DNA from: Paludibacteraceae bacterium
GTDB taxonomy: Bacteria > Bacteroidota > Bacteroidia > Bacteroidales > Paludibacteraceae
Reading direction: 5' to 3'
Length of the DNA: 37,860 nt
Assembly (NCBI GenBank): GCA_017387515.1
Contig: JAFOFC010000001.1
Coordinates: 1-37,860, forward strand
The first letter of the stretch is position 1. Every line of letters begins with the position of its first letter. Below the pieces are notes generated by a model. It was not told the DNA's origin, ran no database searches, and was given only the letters and a program-made list of their open reading frames with translations. A program made the position numbers and the translations under genes. Below, piece by piece: positions 8,124-36,808 of this stretch.

Positions 8124-11100
8124 ATGGCATTTAGAACTGATAATAAACAAAAAAATAATTTTAGCAAAATCACCATCAGCTTGGCTTCTCCAGAAGAAAT
8201 TTTGGAGCAATCAAGCGGTGAAGTGCTAAAACCAGAAACCATCAACTACCGTACGTATAAACCCGAACGCGATGGTTTGTTCTGCGAACGTATTTTTGGT
8301 CCTACCAAAGATTACGAATGTCATTGCGGCAAATACCGTAGCATTCGTTACAAAGGCATTACTTGCGACCGTTGTGGTGTAGAAGTAACCGAAAAGAAAG
8401 TTCGTCGTGAACGCATGGGACACATTAAATTGGTAGTTCCTGTTGCTCACATTTGGTATTTCCGTTCGTTACCTAATAAAATTGGTTATTTGTTGGGCTT
8501 GCCTACCAAAAAACTAGATTCTATTATCTACTACGAACGTTACATCATTATCCAACCTGGTATTCGTACCGACTTGGCTGCAGGCGACTTGCTTACCGAA
8601 GAAGAATACTTGGACATTATGGATTCGCTACCACGCGAAAACTACTTGCTAGAAGATACCGATCCTAACAAGTTTATCGCAAAAATGGGTGCAGAAGCCG
8701 TTCAAGATATGCTTAATCGTTTGGATTTGGATAGCTTATCGTACGAATTGCGCGATAAAGCCAACAGCGATGGCGCACAACAACGCAAAACAGAAGCATT
8801 AAAACGCTTGCAAGTAATTGAATCGTTCCGTGCCTCTAAAAATCGCAACAAACCCGAATGGATGATTGTAAACGTGGTTCCTGTAATTCCACCCGAATTG
8901 CGTCCTTTGGTTCCATTGGATGGTGGCCGTTTTGCAACATCCGACTTGAACGATTTGTATCGTCGTGTTATTATTCGTAACAACCGTCTTAAAAAGTTGA
9001 TTGAGATCAAAGCTCCTGATGTAATTTTACGTAACGAAAAACGTATGTTGCAAGAAGCTGTAGACTCACTATTTGACAATACCCGCAAATCGACTGCAGT
9101 TAAAGCAGATGCTAACCGTCCTTTAAAATCGTTGTCGGACAGCTTGAAAGGTAAACAAGGTCGTTTCCGTCAAAACTTGTTGGGTAAACGTGTTGACTAT
9201 TCAGCTCGTTCTGTAATTGTGGTTGGTCCTGAATTGCGCATGCACGAATGTGGTCTGCCTAAAGACATGGCCATTGAATTGTATAAACCTTTTGTTATTC
9301 GTAAATTAATAGAACGTGGTACTGTAAAAACAGTAAAAGCTGCCAAAAAAATGGTAGACTTTAGAAAAGACCCCATTGTATGGGAAATCTTGGAACACGT
9401 TATGAAAGGTCACCCCGTGTTGTTGAACCGTGCTCCTACCCTACCGTTTGGGTATTCAAGCATTCCAACCCAAAATGATTGAGGGTAAAGCAATTCAACT
9501 ACACCCATTGGCATGTACCGCGTTCAACGCTGACTTTGACGGTGACCAAATGGCTGTTCACTTGCCACTAGGCAATGAGGCTATTTTGGAAGCACAAATC
9601 TTGATGTTGGCATCGCACAACATTTTGAACCCTGCCAACGGTGCTCCTATTACCGTGCCTTCGCAAGACATGATTTTGGGCTTGTACTACATGACCAAAG
9701 AACGTCCCGGCGCATTGGGTGAAGGGTTGAAATTCTATTCGCCAGAAGAAGTAAACATTGCATACAACGAACGTAAAGTATCGTTGAACGCTAAAATTAC
9801 CGTTAGAACCAAAGACGTTGAAAACAGCTTAGTAGTAACTAAATTGATAGAAACTACCGTAGGTCGTGTATTGGTTAACGAATGTGTTCCAAACGAAGTA
9901 GGCTTTATCAACGAATTGATTACCAAAAAATCGTTGCGTAACATCATTAGCAAGGTAATTAGCGTATGTGGTGTTGCACGTACTGCCGATTTCTTGGACG
10001 ATATCAAGAACTTGGGTTATTACATGGCATTTAAAGGTTGTTTGTCGTTTAACCTTGAAAACGTAATTATTCCTGCCGAAAAAGAAAGCTTGGTGGCAGA
10101 AGGTTACCAAAAAGTAGAAGACATCATGATGAACTATAACATGGGTCTTATTACTTACAACGAACGTTACAACCAAATTATTGATACTTGGACTCACGTT
10201 AACAACAACCTATCGCGCATCTTGATTAAACAATTGCAAGAAGACGAACAAGGCTTCAACTCTGTTTACATGATGTTGCACTCGGGTGCTCGTGGTTCTG
10301 AAACACAGATTAGCCAGCTATGCGGTATGCGTGGTTTGATGGCTAAACCTCAAAAAGCGGGTTCGGAAGGTGGTCAAATTATTGAAAACCCCATTTTGTC
10401 GAACTTTAAAGAAGGTTTGTCGGTGTTGGAATACTTTATTTCTACCCACGGTGCTCGTAAAGGTTTGGCGGATACCGCTTTGAAAACGGCTGACGCTGGT
10501 TACTTGACCCGTCGTTTGGTAGACGTATCGCACGACGTGATTATTCAAGAAGAAGACTGTGGTACTTTGCGTGGTTTGATTGCTACCGAATTGAAAAACA
10601 ACGAGGACGTTATTTCTACCCTAGAAGAACGTATCTTGGGTCGCGTATCGGTACACGATATTGTTCATCCTATCACTAACAAGATTATTGTGGGTGCTGG
10701 CGAAGAAATTACCGAAGAAGCCGCTAAACTTATCCAAGAATCGCCTATTGAACAAGTAGAAATTCGTTCGGTATTGACCTGCGAATCTAAAAAAGGTGTT
10801 TGTGCTAAATGCTATGGTCGCAACTTGGCTACCGGCAGAATGGTACAAAAAGGCGAAGCGGTTGGTGTAATTGCTGCTCAATCTATTGGTGAACCTGGTA
10901 CACAGCTTACCCTTCGTACCTTCCACGTGGGTGGTGTTGCATCGAACGTAGCTACCGAAAATAAATTAGTTTCTCGTTACGAAGGTATTCTAGAAATTGA
11001 CGAATTACGTACCGTAACCAGCAACGATGGCAAAGAAATTGTAGTAAGCCGTTTAACAGAAATGCGTATTGTTGAACCAAATACCAAAGTTATTTTGACT

Positions 11101-12417
11101 CAACAAAACATTCCTTACGCATCTACCTTGTTCCTAAAACCAGGAACAACCTTGAAAAAAGGTGACGTAATTTGCGAATGGGACCCATTCAACGCTGTAG
11201 TTATTTCTGAGGTAACTGGTAAAATTCAATTTGAAAGCATGATTGAAAATGTTACCTATAAAACAGAATCGGACGAACAAACAGGCTTGAAAGAAAAGAT
11301 CATTATTGAATCGAAAGATAAAAATAAGATCCCTGCTGCTCAAGTTTTGGACGCAGAAGGCAATGTAGTTCGCAACTACGCACTTCCTGTAGGTGCTCAC
11401 GTATCGCTAGACGAAGGTGCTGCCATTGAAGTAGGTCAAACCTTGTTTAAAATACCTCGTGCTGTTAGCAAAGCAGGTGACATCACAGGTGGTCTTCCAC
11501 GTGTTACCGAATTGTTTGAAGCACGTAACCCATCTAACCCAGCTATTGTATCTGAAATTGATGGTGAAGTAAGCTTTGGTAAAATTAAACGTGGTCAACG
11601 CGAAATTATCATTACCTCTAAATCGGGCGAAGAAAGACGTTACTTGGTTCCATTGTCAAAACAAATTTTGGTACAAGAAAACGACTTTGTACGCGCAGGT
11701 GGTGCTCTATCTGACGGTGCTATCACTCCATCGGATATCTTGGCTATCAAAGGTCCTACCGCTGTTCAAGAATACATTGTAAACGAGGTACAAGACGTAT
11801 ACCGTTCGCAAGGTGTAAAAATCAACGATAAACACTTTGAGGTTATTGTACGTCAAATGATGCGCAAAGTAGAAATTGACGACCCAGGTGATACACGTTT
11901 CTTGGAAAAACAAATTGTGGACAAACAAGCCTTTATGGCAGAAAATGACCAAATTTGGGGTAAAAAAGTGGTTACCGATGCTGGTGACTCTACCATTTTC
12001 CAACGCGGTATGATTATTACAGCTCGTAAATTGCGTGACGAAAACAGTGCGCTAAAACGTAAAGACTTACGCCCTGTAGAAACACGCGATGCTGTTCCTG
12101 CAACATCAAGCCAAATTTTGCAAGGTATTACTCGTGCTGCATTGCAAACCACCAGCTTTATGTCGGCTGCTTCGTTCCAAGAAACCACCAAAGTATTGAA
12201 CGATGCTGCTATCAACGGCAAAGTAGACAAACTAGAAGGTATGAAAGAAAACGTTATTTGCGGTCACTTGATTCCTGCTGGTACTGGCCAAGCCGAATTT
12301 GAAAAGATTGTGGTAGCTTCGCGCGAAGAATACGACAAATTAATGGAAGCTAAACGCAGTGTAATTGATATGAACGTTGCTAAACAAGAAGACAACATCG
12401 CTTCTATCAACGATTAA
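8124..12417 (+). CDS. rpoC: DNA-directed RNA polymerase subunit beta', frameshifted by an apparent 2-nt deletion
   Basis: RpoC is the catalytic clamp subunit. The first frame (8124-9482) holds the N-terminal zinc site CHCGKYRS...CDRCG and runs to LLNRAPTL. It then goes out of frame and stops at 9480-9482. The second frame resumes at 9445 with [10 protein letters not shown] and runs to 12417. It includes the Mg-binding [10 protein letters not shown] (9526-9555) and the second zinc site [13 protein letters not shown]. The family sequence here is NRAPTLHRLGIQAF. The His codon is reduced to a lone C at 9444, so two bases (AC or CA of CTACACCG) are missing. Restoring them gives 1431 residues, a normal length. 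A broken essential gene is most simply a sequence error, though a true lesion or recoding cannot be excluded from the sequence. Confidence 0.93.
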
Positions 12418-14638: not shown

Positions 14639-16015
14639 TTATTTAGCCCAGAGCTTGTAATCGGCGTATTTATCCATGATGATATCAACGTAGGTTACAG
14701 GCTCTTTCCCTCTACAATAGCCATATTTACATACAGAGTCTGAATAAAAAGCAGGCTCTGATTTTTTTAGCAGGAACTCTTTAACATCGTCCCATACATT
14801 CATATCTTTTTGATATTTAACGGCCAATGCCCTGGCATCAAAAATATGTCCTGGACCGGCATTATAAGAGGCTAATACAAATTTGATTCTTTCTTCTTTA
14901 TCTGTTATTCCTGGGAATAATTTTTCTAACGATTTTAAGTAATCTACAGCAACTGCCACATTCTTTTCTGGCACAAAGATTTCTTCGGCCAATAAGTTAA
15001 GCGATGCGGCTGTATTGGGCATTAGTTGCATCAACCCACAAGCCCCTGCCCACGACACGGCTTCTGGATTAAATTTTGATTCTTTGTAAGCAACTGCGGC
15101 CAATAAGCGCCAATCCCAACCTAATTTTTCGGCTTCTTTCTTAAACAAATAATCGAACGATGAGATTCGACCGGGCACAGGGATAGGAGCAAAACCTACC
15201 GACTCAAAATACTTACTTTTTTCAAAATACTTATAGTAGATGGATTGGAAGGATGTTTTTTTATTTAATTCAGCTACCCATTCGTTGATGTAATGCAGTA
15301 ATTCGGGCGCGTTTTGCGATACTACCCATGCAGAACGTTGCGGGAAACTAATAGCCAAACTATAATCAATGTTGCCAAAATAAGTTTTATTTAACCTAGC
15401 CGTTACATCGTCCGAAACGGTGTACGAAAGCTGATGATGCGCCACCTGAGCAATTAGTTCGTCTGTTTTAACCGAGTCGGGAACGGTTAGAATGTTTATT
15501 CCTCCTCCAATCTCGTCGTTCAAGTCTATTAAGCGGTTGGTATAGATACTATGCTCTGGAACGGTCACATCAATTCCTGCTAAATCTAATACCGTTTTAC
15601 ACATAGAATCGGAATGGCATTGCACCAATACCTGGTTGCTGATGTATTCACGCTCTGTGTAGGCTACCAACGATTTATACTGATGAGTGTAAGGAATGCG
15701 ATAAGCAACTAAATCGCCTTTGCCCTCTTGCAACCAATCCAATAGGGTGGGCATATCTGGTGCTATGATTATCTGCAGGTTTATGGAGAGCTCCTTGCAT
15801 AGATTTTTGGCTAACTCGTATTCGTATCCCATTTCGTTATCGCGGTACAGAAAATACGAAGTTGGTCCATACATGGTTAACACGCGCAAGGTATCGGACG
15901 CCATTATTTCGGGCAAATCGCGTGTAAAATGAATGGGTTCCTTTCTGCCAGGCTCGTTGCAAGAAAATAAAAGTACAAGCAATAAAATAGAAATAATAGA
16001 GAGGTGTTTTTGCAT
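14639..16015 (-). CDS. MltF-like membrane-bound lytic transglycosylase, lipoprotein
   Basis: A 458-residue protein combining a solute-binding family 3 domain (about residues 35-270) with a C-terminal SLT lysozyme-like domain (about 285-440), the MltF architecture. Lytic transglycosylases cleave the MurNAc-GlcNAc bond of peptidoglycan, giving 1,6-anhydro products. The N-terminus is a lipoprotein signal with lipobox LFSC at about residue 19. The catalytic glutamate is E312 in AYKESKFNPEA, followed by the family motif GACGLMQLMP and later LASYNAGPGH. In MltF the first domain senses cell-wall peptides and controls the enzyme. Here the bound ligand is unknown. It is transcribed alone on the minus strand. 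Confidence 0.9.
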   Translation of the reverse strand: MQKHLSIISILLLVLLFSCNEPGRKEPIHFTRDLPEIMASDTLRVLTMYGPTSYFLYRDNEMGYEYELAKNLCKELSINLQIIIAPDMPTLLDWLQEGKGDLVAYRIPYTHQYKSLVAYTEREYISNQVLVQCHSDSMCKTVLDLAGIDVTVPEHSIYTNRLIDLNDEIGGGINILTVPDSVKTDELIAQVAHHQLSYTVSDDVTARLNKTYFGNIDYSLAISFPQRSAWVVSQNAPELLHYINEWVAELNKKTSFQSIYYKYFEKSKYFESVGFAPIPVPGRISSFDYLFKKEAEKLGWDWRLLAAVAYKESKFNPEAVSWAGACGLMQLMPNTAASLNLLAEEIFVPEKNVAVAVDYLKSLEKLFPGITDKEERIKFVLASYNAGPGHIFDARALAVKYQKDMNVWDDVKEFLLKKSEPAFYSDSVCKYGYCRGKEPVTYVDIIMDKYADYKLWAK

Positions 16016-33795: not shown

Positions 33796-34629
33796 ATGAA
33801 AAAGATGATTAGCTTGTGTGCTGTTTTACTATGCATGGGCATTGCTATGGCACAAACCAACTTTTACCAAAACAGTTCTTACATTTCTGATAGCGGTGCT
33901 AAGCCCGAGGTTAAAACCGTTTTAAACTACGACAAAAACCTAATTATGGGATACACCATTACCTTTAATTACGATGCTAAAGACATTGAAACGGCTGTAA
34001 TTGAACGCCTTAAAAAAGAAGGTGTAGAAGGAAACAAAAAGAAAAACTTCTATGCTTTCAAAGGCATAAAATACAACTACATTTGGAATAAAATGTTTGA
34101 TATGTACATCCAGTTTGTTGGTTCCAAAAATGCAGGTACTATTAACGTGATATTATCGCAAGGATACGATAATTTTATTATCCCAACAGAAGATAGCATC
34201 ACTACAACCAATATGTTTGCATGGTTAACCTCGTTAGACTTGGACGTACAAAATTATCAATACAACCTTGCCATGCAAGCTCATCAAGAAGAGCATAAGG
34301 ACATAAAAAAAGAATTAAGCAAGCTTGAAAAACAACAAGCTAAGGTTGAAAAGAAGATTAAGAAAAATGCAGATGCACAAGCTAAGTTTGATGCCAGCAA
34401 AACCATTGTATCTGAGAATGATTTAAATGTTGATGCCAAAGTATTAGAGAAAGAGCAAAAACAAGCACAAAAATTATTGGACGAGAAGGCACTACTAGAG
34501 GCAGAATTAAAGAAAATTACCGACAAGATAGACTTGGTTCGCTCTGACCTTAGCAAAAAGAATACTGCCATATCAGACCTTGAAAAAGAGAAACCACTTT
34601 CTAATTCTATCACCACAAGAAAAAAATAA
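33796..34629 (+). CDS. Secreted coiled-coil protein of unknown function
   Basis: I do not recognise this 277-residue protein. It begins with a signal peptide (MKKMISLCAVLLCMGIAMA, cleavage before Q20), so it is probably periplasmic or secreted. Residues about 21-155 form a small mixed globular domain with aromatic residues (FYAFKGIKYNYIW). Residues about 160-262 are Lys/Glu/Ala/Gln-rich heptad-like sequence with no Pro, a likely long coiled coil. The C-terminal end is short and basic. It has its own -7 element and ends 2 bases before the kinase-RapZ gene. It may thus be co-transcribed with that gene, or merely be adjacent. A cell-envelope structural or scaffold role is only a guess. Confidence 0.8.
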   Translation: MKKMISLCAVLLCMGIAMAQTNFYQNSSYISDSGAKPEVKTVLNYDKNLIMGYTITFNYDAKDIETAVIERLKKEGVEGNKKKNFYAFKGIKYNYIWNKMFDMYIQFVGSKNAGTINVILSQGYDNFIIPTEDSITTTNMFAWLTSLDLDVQNYQYNLAMQAHQEEHKDIKKELSKLEKQQAKVEKKIKKNADAQAKFDASKTIVSENDLNVDAKVLEKEQKQAQKLLDEKALLEAELKKITDKIDLVRSDLSKKNTAISDLEKEKPLSNSITTRKK

Positions 34630-34631
34630 GC

Positions 34632-36062
34632 ATGGAGACTTTGTTTAGCCTCTTTGAAAAATATACCGGAGCCCGTCCTAGCCAGCATAGGTTATTGGCG
34701 GGCTCTGGTTCTAATAGGGTTTATTATCGTTTATGGAACAATGAAAAATCCTACATAGCTGTACACGGAACAGACATCAAAGAGAACAATGCATTTTTGG
34801 TTTTATCGGAGCAGATGGCGTCTTGCGGCATTAACGTTCCACAAGTGCTAGCTGTTTCTTCTAATAAAGCCGATTACATACTAAGCGATTTGGGCGATGA
34901 ATCGTTGTTTTTTGAGCACATTGCTAAAGGTTTTGATGATACAACGGTTGCATTACTGCACAAAACCATTGCACAATTACCCCGTATTCAATTTGAGGTT
35001 GCCAAGCATTTAGACTTTGCTGTTTGCTACCCACAAGCCTCCTTTGATAAACGTACCGTTTATTGGGATTTAAACTACTTTAAATATGAGTTTTTAAAGC
35101 CATCGGGCATTGAATTTAACGAAGCCTACTTAGAAGATGATTTTGATGCGCTATGCGCTGATTTGCTAGCAGTAGATACCCCATCTTTTATGTACCGCGA
35201 CTTTCAAAGCCGCAATGTAATGGTGGTAAACAACGTACCTTATTTTATTGATTACCAAGGAGGAAGAAAAGGACCTTTTTATTACGATTTAGTATCGTTT
35301 GTATATCAAGCAAAGGCCAACTTCCCTGCAGCGGTTCGCACATCGCTAATTAACACTTATAAAGAGGCATTACAGCCTTATTACAAGGTGGACGATGCTA
35401 CATTTAATAGGCAATTATCTATTTTTGCACTATTTAGAACTTTGCAAGTGCTAGGGGCATATGGTTTTAGGGGACTTATTGAGCAAAAATCACACTTTAT
35501 AGCTAGCATTCCGTTTGCCATCAAACAATTGCAGTCATTGCTAAACGAAAACGATTATAGTGCCTATCCATACCTAGTAAGTGTGCTAACTGCTTTGGTA
35601 GATAAATACGCTAACACCACCGTAGAGACCAACATTGCCCCCACTAAATTATGCGTTGACGTGTATAGTTTTTCTTACAAAAAAGGCATTCCTACCGACT
35701 ATTCGGGCAACGGAGGCGGTTTTGTGTTTGACTGCAGGGCTATTCACAATCCAGGCAGATACGAACCATATAAAAAGTTAACAGGTCTAGATAAAGAAGT
35801 AATTGACTTTTTAGAAGAAGACGGCGAGATAGTAACCTTTATGCAACACATCTACGCCTTGGCCGATCCCGCTGTAGAGCGTTATGTAAAGCGTGGTTTT
35901 ACGCACCTACAATTTAGTTTTGGTTGCACGGGCGGGCAACATCGCTCTGTATATGGTGCCCAACATCTAGCCGAACACATCGCCCAAAAATTTGGGGTAC
36001 AAGTGCGTTTACAACACCGAGAAAGAAACATTACCCAATATTTTAATTGTTCTAAGAAATGA
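34632..36062 (+). CDS. AmgK-like phosphotransferase fused to RapZ C-terminal domain
   Basis: A 476-residue two-domain protein. Residues about 1-325 are an aminoglycoside-phosphotransferase-type kinase like AmgK, the MurNAc/GlcNAc anomeric kinase: a Gly-rich loop AGSGSNRVYYR, YILSDLGDESLF, the catalytic loop YRDFQSRN (D190, N195) and Mg-binding D207 in DYQGG. The loop has Tyr where canonical enzymes have His. Residues about 338-476 match the C-terminal domain of RapZ: SYKKGIP, FVFDCRAIHNPG, TGLDKEVIDFL and the hallmark GCTGGQHRSV at 431-440. In E. coli that domain binds glucosamine-6-phosphate and the RNA adaptor machinery. The C-terminal part here lacks the P-loop NTPase half of RapZ. The stop overlaps the next gene as ATGA. 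Confidence 0.87.
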   Translation: METLFSLFEKYTGARPSQHRLLAGSGSNRVYYRLWNNEKSYIAVHGTDIKENNAFLVLSEQMASCGINVPQVLAVSSNKADYILSDLGDESLFFEHIAKGFDDTTVALLHKTIAQLPRIQFEVAKHLDFAVCYPQASFDKRTVYWDLNYFKYEFLKPSGIEFNEAYLEDDFDALCADLLAVDTPSFMYRDFQSRNVMVVNNVPYFIDYQGGRKGPFYYDLVSFVYQAKANFPAAVRTSLINTYKEALQPYYKVDDATFNRQLSIFALFRTLQVLGAYGFRGLIEQKSHFIASIPFAIKQLQSLLNENDYSAYPYLVSVLTALVDKYANTTVETNIAPTKLCVDVYSFSYKKGIPTDYSGNGGGFVFDCRAIHNPGRYEPYKKLTGLDKEVIDFLEEDGEIVTFMQHIYALADPAVERYVKRGFTHLQFSFGCTGGQHRSVYGAQHLAEHIAQKFGVQVRLQHRERNITQYFNCSKK

Positions 36063-36808
36063 AAGCCTTTGTTTTTGCTGCCGGATTAGGCACGCGTTTA
36101 AAACCATTAACCGACACCATGCCCAAAGCCTTGGTTCCTATCCAAGAGAAACCGCTATTGGGGCATGTTATGGAAAAATTACAACGCTATGGCATCAACG
36201 ATTTTGTGGTAAACATTCATCATTTTGGCGAACAAATAATTGATTACCTTAAACTAAATTGGAGCGATGCACAGGTAACCATATCTGACGAACGCGCTGC
36301 ACTATTAGAAACAGGGGGCGCAGTAAAGAAAGCCATTCCATTATTGGGTACTGAATCCTTTTTAATACACAATGTGGATATTTTATCAAATGCCAACATA
36401 GCCCAACTAACAACAGAGCATACGCACAAAAAAGCGGCTGCAACCCTATTGGTTAGCAACCGCAAAAGCAGTAGGTATTTGTTGTTCGATAAGGACATGC
36501 GCCTTAAAGCATGGACCAACACGCAAACTGGCGAGGTTAATTCGCCCTATCAAAACATTGACATTAGCACACTAAAGCCATATGCATTTGGTGGAATTCA
36601 TTGCTTTTCGCCCGTGCTGTTTGACGAAATGAGCACCTATCCCGACAAATTCTCTATTATTGATTTTTATCTTGACCAATGCCTTAAATACCCTATTTAT
36701 GGATGGGAACAAGTAGATTTACGACTATTGGATGTGGGTAAAATAAATTCGCTTGAATTAGCCAATATGTACGTCGCGCAATCCCAAGAAATACAAGATT
36801 CCATCTAA
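36059..36808 (+). CDS. MurU-like sugar-1-phosphate nucleotidyltransferase
   Basis: A 249-residue GT-A-fold nucleotidyltransferase. The N-terminal nucleotide-binding motif is FAAGLGTRLKPLTD with PKALVPI (residues 6-28). The metal-binding Asp is in FLIHNVDILS. YAFGGIHCFSPVLFDE matches the later family motif. It resembles MurU, which makes UDP-MurNAc from MurNAc-1-phosphate. Other NDP-sugar pyrophosphorylases of this shape exist, so the sugar and nucleotide are inferred. It overlaps the kinase-RapZ gene by 4 bases, the AmgK-MurU arrangement, which supports a two-step pathway. Its last 51 bases overlap serB on the opposite strand. Confidence 0.87.
   Translation: MKAFVFAAGLGTRLKPLTDTMPKALVPIQEKPLLGHVMEKLQRYGINDFVVNIHHFGEQIIDYLKLNWSDAQVTISDERAALLETGGAVKKAIPLLGTESFLIHNVDILSNANIAQLTTEHTHKKAAATLLVSNRKSSRYLLFDKDMRLKAWTNTQTGEVNSPYQNIDISTLKPYAFGGIHCFSPVLFDEMSTYPDKFSIIDFYLDQCLKYPIYGWEQVDLRLLDVGKINSLELANMYVAQSQEIQDSI

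Follow-up and report, generated by a model that had tools for sequence, protein, structure and literature searches.

A gene in a 37,860-nucleotide stretch of DNA from a Paludibacteraceae bacterium (hereafter, the window) encodes an AmgK-like sugar kinase fused to the C-terminal domain of RapZ (RapZ-C), and overlaps the gene of a MurU-like nucleotidyltransferase. The two genes probably serve a salvage pathway, and are best explained as the anabolic N-acetylmuramic acid (MurNAc) salvage pair of Bacteroidales, equipped with a regulatory RapZ-C that binds phosphosugars. Taken as a whole, this explanation is held with even confidence, and the balance between RapZ-C regulating the pathway and RapZ-C acting on a sugar phosphate is about level. 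In the proposed mechanism, the kinase half would phosphorylate MurNAc, and possibly N-acetylglucosamine (GlcNAc), at C1, and the MurU-like enzyme would then form UDP-MurNAc, which would feed the Mur ligases and by-pass MurA and MurB. Through its conserved CTGGQHRS loop, RapZ-C would bind a sugar phosphate of the pathway by the phosphate group. It would thereby couple salvage to the supply of amino-sugar phosphate, and regulation of the kinase to which it is fused is the most likely means. The explanation is based on the architecture of the genes, their conservation and neighbourhood, co-occurrence with AnmK, retention of the pair in a genome with no MurA or MurB match, and loss of an RNA-binding lysine; from these we infer the substrate, the C1 regiochemistry, the identity of the ligand and the regulatory effect. 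The self-sensing of amino-sugar phosphate within one polypeptide, put forward in an earlier sequence-only reading of the window, is plausible.

The fused gene and its nucleotidyltransferase partner

The source genome, of the Bacteroidales, comprises 1.76 Mb and is 87% complete; its contig 17 is the window. Pfam confirms that an APH/AmgK-type kinase and RapZ-C share a single open reading frame (ORF), as the sequence-only reading had claimed together with the motif GCTGGQHRSV at residues 431–440, which is likewise present; the ATGA overlap with the MurU-like gene was located at 36059–36062, also in agreement with that reading. PF01636 (APH) exceeds its cut-off in the fusion ORF with an E value of 2e-9, and the best NCBIfam kinase model is AmgK (NF045759 and NF045698, with 53.6 of 550 and 33.7 of 500 bits, respectively). 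Asp190, Asn195 and Asp207, which we take to be the catalytic loop and the metal-binding Asp of APH-fold kinases, are kept in 80/80 fusions. The closest solved structure to the kinase half is 3csv, named aminoglycoside phosphotransferase (phmmer, E 8.8e-12). The partner protein matches PF00483 (NTP_transferase; E 1.4e-16), and the best of 35 NCBIfam families is MurU (NF045761), with 120 bits for a curated cut-off of 250, versus 72.6 bits for HddC, the heptose-1-phosphate guanylyltransferase. Among nucleotidyltransferase structures, the partner protein comes closest to 4y7t and to 8hhd, which bears the name MurU, and AmgK and MurU are also the best models for the kinase and transferase of two distant relatives. 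The organization is analogous to AmgK-MurU recycling in Pseudomonas, with an APH-fold sugar kinase and a small nucleotidyltransferase as neighbours, but differs from it in the C-terminal RapZ domain of the kinase and in scores far under the equivalog cut-offs.

A tblastn search of genome contigs with the fusion revealed 467 relatives, of which the best 80, each aligned over most of the query, were kept. Counts out of 80 fusions or loci refer to 79 of these and the window, with one locus (L094) left out, where a longer ORF on the opposite strand covers the place of the fusion. The closest relatives by fusion sequence are Paludibacteraceae metagenome-assembled genomes (MAGs), with 83% identity over the fusion. 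RapZ_C was found in 304 of 393 Bacteroidales genomes, and the frames among the matches listed are about 390 amino acids or longer, except in G299, G318, G417, G418, G529, G576 and G657. The survey that the sequence-only reading had called for thus shows the fusion to be widespread; the 467 relatives and the 304 genomes rule out a chance or misassembled fusion, as well as a rarity of the source organism.

Among 296 Bacteroidota genomes, 36 contain RapZ_C, in frames of 478–524 amino acids in 27 and of 134–155 amino acids in nine. A same-type kinase gene directly adjoins the short frame in seven of these nine (G031 and six genomes of family f5), and a MurU-like gene is next in line in six of the seven, including five of the six f5 genomes. 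The cassette therefore exists both fused and as separate genes, which is a classic sign of functional linkage. Stand-alone RapZ-C of the Bacteroidota type with no adjoining kinase occurs at loci L131, L132 and L135, whose neighbours match endonuclease I, MFS and imidazolonepropionase and have no shared theme. The NTPase half of RapZ (PF03668) was found in 0/60 Bacteroidales genomes, the window's included, in a search that was positive in 6/14 controls, among them Escherichia coli. It thus seems that the tail of RapZ is in use in Bacteroidales, but not its head. The earlier suggestion that a kinase replaces the NTPase half is thus borne out for the architecture, but fusion itself is not essential, since the domain stands as a separate gene beside the kinase in the six f5 genomes and a few others.

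The RapZ C-terminal domain and its invariant C-X5-R-S loop

RapZ_C (PF22740) matches the fusion with 116.4 bits (cut-off 27, E 1.1e-33), whereas the equivalog model of full-length RapZ, NF003828, reaches only 99.9 of the 244 bits of its cut-off. In a wider alignment, 126 of 140 C-domain pieces passed the redundancy filter, and 105 of these plus the window's own gave a set of 106 sequences. Within the loop G-C-T-G-G-[QKR]-H-R-S, the residues C, T, G, G, H, R and S are invariant in all 106, fused or stand-alone. In the predicted model of RapZ-C (mean pLDDT 95), a strand (model residues 92–99) ends at Cys432 and a helix (model residues 105–121) starts at Arg438, with the C-X5-R-S loop between them. 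The phosphate loops of cysteine phosphatases have this layout, with C-X5-R-(S/T) flanked by strand and helix.

This layout, together with the invariance of the loop, raises an alternative to the regulatory role, in which RapZ-C is a cysteine-dependent sugar-6-phosphatase (C432-X5-R438-S439) that removes from MurNAc the 6-phosphate added by AnmK or MurK, before the kinase acts at C1. We consider it possible but rather doubtful. It would supply the MurNAc-6-phosphate (MurNAc-6P) phosphatase step of MupP, which differs in being a HAD-superfamily enzyme, according to the available part of PMC5371407. Findings on E. coli RapZ point in the same direction: the same loop helps to bind sulfate or malonate (PMC5737377, in the portion available), and in the available text of PMC9841335, the C247A and C247S variants are both inactive, a possible catalytic role of the -SH group is suggested by the authors, and the density in the crystal with glucosamine-6-phosphate (GlcN6P) is interpreted as probably a transformed product. 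The main text of that article, as far as it was available, does not use the word "phosphatase". The predicted model was also subjected to fold comparison, based on the best 50 matches each from Foldseek and VIA-align.

With respect to the C-terminal domain of E. coli RapZ (5o5s, 5o5q), the protein lacks the NTPase half and shows several further differences. The GlcN6P pocket residues T248, G249, H252 and R253 (E. coli numbering) are kept in 80/80 fusions. By contrast, the fifth pocket residue, H190, is Gly in 80/80, and in the 106-sequence set the position is Gly in 105 and Tyr in one; an insertion G-N-G-G-G at residues 359–363 of the window protein is missing in E. coli RapZ. The loss of H190 counts against the sensing part of the proposal, and GlcN6P is a doubtful ligand of the domain because of this substitution and the Gly-rich insertion, despite the conservation of four of the five pocket residues. 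At locus L116 (G371), the RapZ-C of a fused protein has NPYW instead of NPGR, which brings it nearer to E. coli RapZ.

RapZ is an RNA adaptor in enterobacteria, and a further alternative is that RapZ-C keeps this role and moonlights on a small RNA or an mRNA. The domain is a true RapZ_C, and the GlcN6P pocket of the E. coli protein also contacts RNA (PMC9841335, available part). However, K270, an RNA-binding residue of E. coli RapZ together with K281–K283 (PMC7073468), is replaced by Val in 56, Ile in 23 and Leu in one of the 80 fusions; the E. coli fragment aligned stopped at residue 277, and K281, R282 and K283 lie beyond it. Control of GlmZ in E. coli also requires H190 (PMC9841335, same part), which is lost here. 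An adaptor function is therefore very improbable.

Association with cell-wall recycling

RapZ_C and the anhydro-MurNAc kinase AnmK co-occur in the 393 Bacteroidales genomes: 232 have both, 72 RapZ_C only, 21 AnmK only and 68 neither (odds ratio 10.4, p 2.5e-19). When each family is counted once by majority, the corresponding numbers are 79, 19, 4 and 18 (odds ratio 18.7, p 5e-8). The description of Porphyromonas gingivalis as devoid of both AmgK and AnmK, in the available part of PMC7670621, agrees with this co-occurrence. RapZ_C is present and MurQ is missing in 203 of 253 AnmK-positive genomes, which should make MurNAc-6P without the degrading etherase, so an anabolic route is indicated. Over all genomes, MurQ occurs in 51/304 with RapZ_C versus 37/89 without (odds ratio 0.28; p 0.046 by family majority). 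MurQ was counted by visual inspection, with an E value of 1e-40 as the limit, which gives 88 genomes (75 with the curated cut-off) and leaves out G521 and G526 (about 1e-20) and many matches near 1e-9 in frames of about 610–620 amino acids, which look like GlmS through its SIS domains. In the same search, no SIS-domain match was found in G676, a 100% complete genome of the window's family, f1. As GlmS is not found in the window genome either, de novo synthesis of GlcN6P may be missing in f1.

The pair is also retained where the de novo route is not visible. Genome G606 (99% complete) has no MurB, MurA or AnmK match; MurA and MurB are both present in four further members of its family. G606 has six Mur-ligase-domain matches and the fusion with its overlapping MurU-like gene, and the pair is the sole visible source of UDP-MurNAc in this genome. 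A comparable situation is described for Tannerella forsythia, also of the Bacteroidales, which is a MurNAc auxotroph without MurA, MurB and a predicted AnmK, and to which an AmgK/MurU route has been assigned (PMC7670621, PMC5790795); E. coli has served as a host for the expression of its AmgK and MurU (PMC13041923). These statements come from the available parts of the three papers. The same three absences are found in G606.

The gene neighbourhood is in line with a recycling role. At 52/80 loci, the fusion is followed within 150 bp by a MurU-like gene; this gene is 150–1500 bp downstream at nine loci and further off at two. Family f161 was sampled with four genomes, of which G505 and G651 were examined. 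In both, the genes for the MurU-like enzyme and the fusion are clustered with those for MurQ, a NagX/HGSNAT-like membrane protein and a GH3 (NagZ-family) protein, with the GH3 joined to a beta-lactamase-type domain at one locus (L147). In G448, about 3.5 kb separate AnmK from the MurU-like cassette gene. An N-acyl-D-glucosamine 2-epimerase is encoded two or three genes downstream in 6/80 loci (one of the six annotated). The AnmK co-occurrence, the f161 cluster and the best models of the relatives uphold the amino-sugar and wall-recycling setting proposed in the sequence-only reading; the assignment is well supported for the order Bacteroidales and weaker for the window genome itself.

Several observations weigh against this assignment. 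The kinase half and the MurU-like protein both score far under the AmgK and MurU equivalog cut-offs, and no MurU-like gene was found in the stretch examined at 16/80 loci, with too little sequence at one more. RapZ_C occurs in the 72 genomes without AnmK, and in 14 families it is present in most genomes and AnmK in none. Among the six sampled genomes of the window's family, the five others being 99–100% complete, the fusion is found in 6/6, AnmK in 0/6 and MurQ in 2/6. The window genome (87% complete) has no match to AnmK, MurQ or GlmS; the missing GlmS may reflect its incompleteness. Outside Bacteroidales, AnmK is present in 17/18 genomes with RapZ_C and 18/18 without, which lends no support there; the test is uninformative because AnmK is near-universal either way. 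Avoidance between RapZ_C and MurQ disappears within AnmK-positive genomes (29/232 versus 4/21, p 0.49), and the candidate view of MurQ as the complement of RapZ_C was rejected accordingly.

The distribution of AnmK also bears on the phosphatase alternative. The MurNAc-6P of the 203 genomes with AnmK and RapZ_C but no MurQ probably needs a phosphatase, and of the HAD genes that precede the fusion at 9/80 loci, the one annotated encodes a BT2121-type inorganic diphosphatase, not MupP. A Gph-type HAD model (NF009698, or PRK13223, which is Gph-like; the MupP model is NF009696), searched in 19 genomes, left G409 without a match and did not exceed 23.2 bits in G395, G579 or G566, four genomes in which AnmK and RapZ_C are present and MurQ is missing; as the model is not that of MupP, this is a hint only. 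Against a phosphatase stands the persistence of RapZ-C without AnmK, and on this account, and as the fold comparison is not decisive, it is not favoured over the sensor. In a broader and doubtful form, RapZ-C would be an unrecognised C-X5-R-S enzyme acting on amino-sugar 6-phosphates, fused to or beside an anomeric MurNAc kinase in Bacteroidota, so that the C6 phosphate is taken off and the C1 phosphate put on. If true, the enzyme would supply the MupP step, close the recycling pathway and explain the cysteine requirement of E. coli RapZ.

The low AmgK and MurU scores, the HddC score of the partner and the lack of any recycling gene directly adjoining the cassette in the window are consistent with a last alternative, in which the substrate of the kinase/transferase pair is another sugar, such as GlcNAc, a heptose or a sugar of the capsule, and the link of the pair to AnmK is indirect. 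The AnmK association, the clustering with MurQ and GH3 in f161 and the retention of the pair in G606 argue against it. A capsule or heptose context, named beforehand in the sequence-only reading as refuting wall recycling, did not emerge either: of the 14 groups of neighbours that occur most often (three genes on each side of 80 loci; some annotated, others judged from the sequence start), none resembles capsule or heptose synthesis. A substrate other than MurNAc is therefore unlikely, and MurNAc salvage is preferred.

Features of the window and significance

The features are collected in Table 1. A homologue of the 277-amino-acid protein encoded upstream of the fusion is found at position -1 and on the same strand in 5/80 loci, the window counted, and the protein is a possible operon partner. 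Elsewhere in the window, a protein with an SLT lytic transglycosylase domain and solute-binding domains (14639–16015, minus strand) resembles MltF; it would yield anhydro-muropeptides, though AnmK was not found in this genome. The rpoC gene is split into two overlapping frames (8124–9482 and 9430–12417), with Rpb1 domain 2 divided between both, which is probably a frameshift or an assembly error in the MAG.

Table 1. Coordinates of the cassette and associated features (window positions unless a locus is given)
Feature	Position	Strand	Details
Fusion gene, AmgK-like kinase and RapZ C-terminal domain	34632..36062	+	ATG start, 476 aa, one ORF; Pfam, NCBIfam, PDB
APH/AmgK-like kinase domain, residues 21–248	34692..35375	+	PF01636; YRDFQSRN loop (D190, N195), IDYQGG (D207)
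RapZ C-terminal domain, residues 342–464	35655..36023	+	PF22740
C432-TGGQH-R438-S439, C-X5-R-S loop	35925..35948	+	Counterpart of E. coli RapZ C247–S254
MurU-like sugar-1-phosphate nucleotidyltransferase, 249 aa	36059..36808	+	ATG start; PF00483; NCBIfam; ATGA overlap with fusion gene
277-aa protein	33796..34629	+	No Pfam match; ends 2 bp upstream of fusion gene
f161 clusters	L147:4652-11999; L151:2728-8982		MurU-like, kinase/RapZ-C, HGSNAT/NagX-like, MurQ, GH3

In the open literature, no paper naming both RapZ and AmgK was found, and no account of the fusion among the papers listed by the searches; the subscription literature was mostly outside the scope, so absence from print is not proven. 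Throughout the Bacteroidales, fusion or adjacency links a RapZ C-terminal domain devoid of the NTPase half to the salvage of wall sugars. The cassette thereby offers a route to the original ligand or activity of RapZ-C and to the reason why Cys247 is essential in E. coli. In bacteria without MurA and MurB, the fusion is the likely kinase that feeds UDP-MurNAc.
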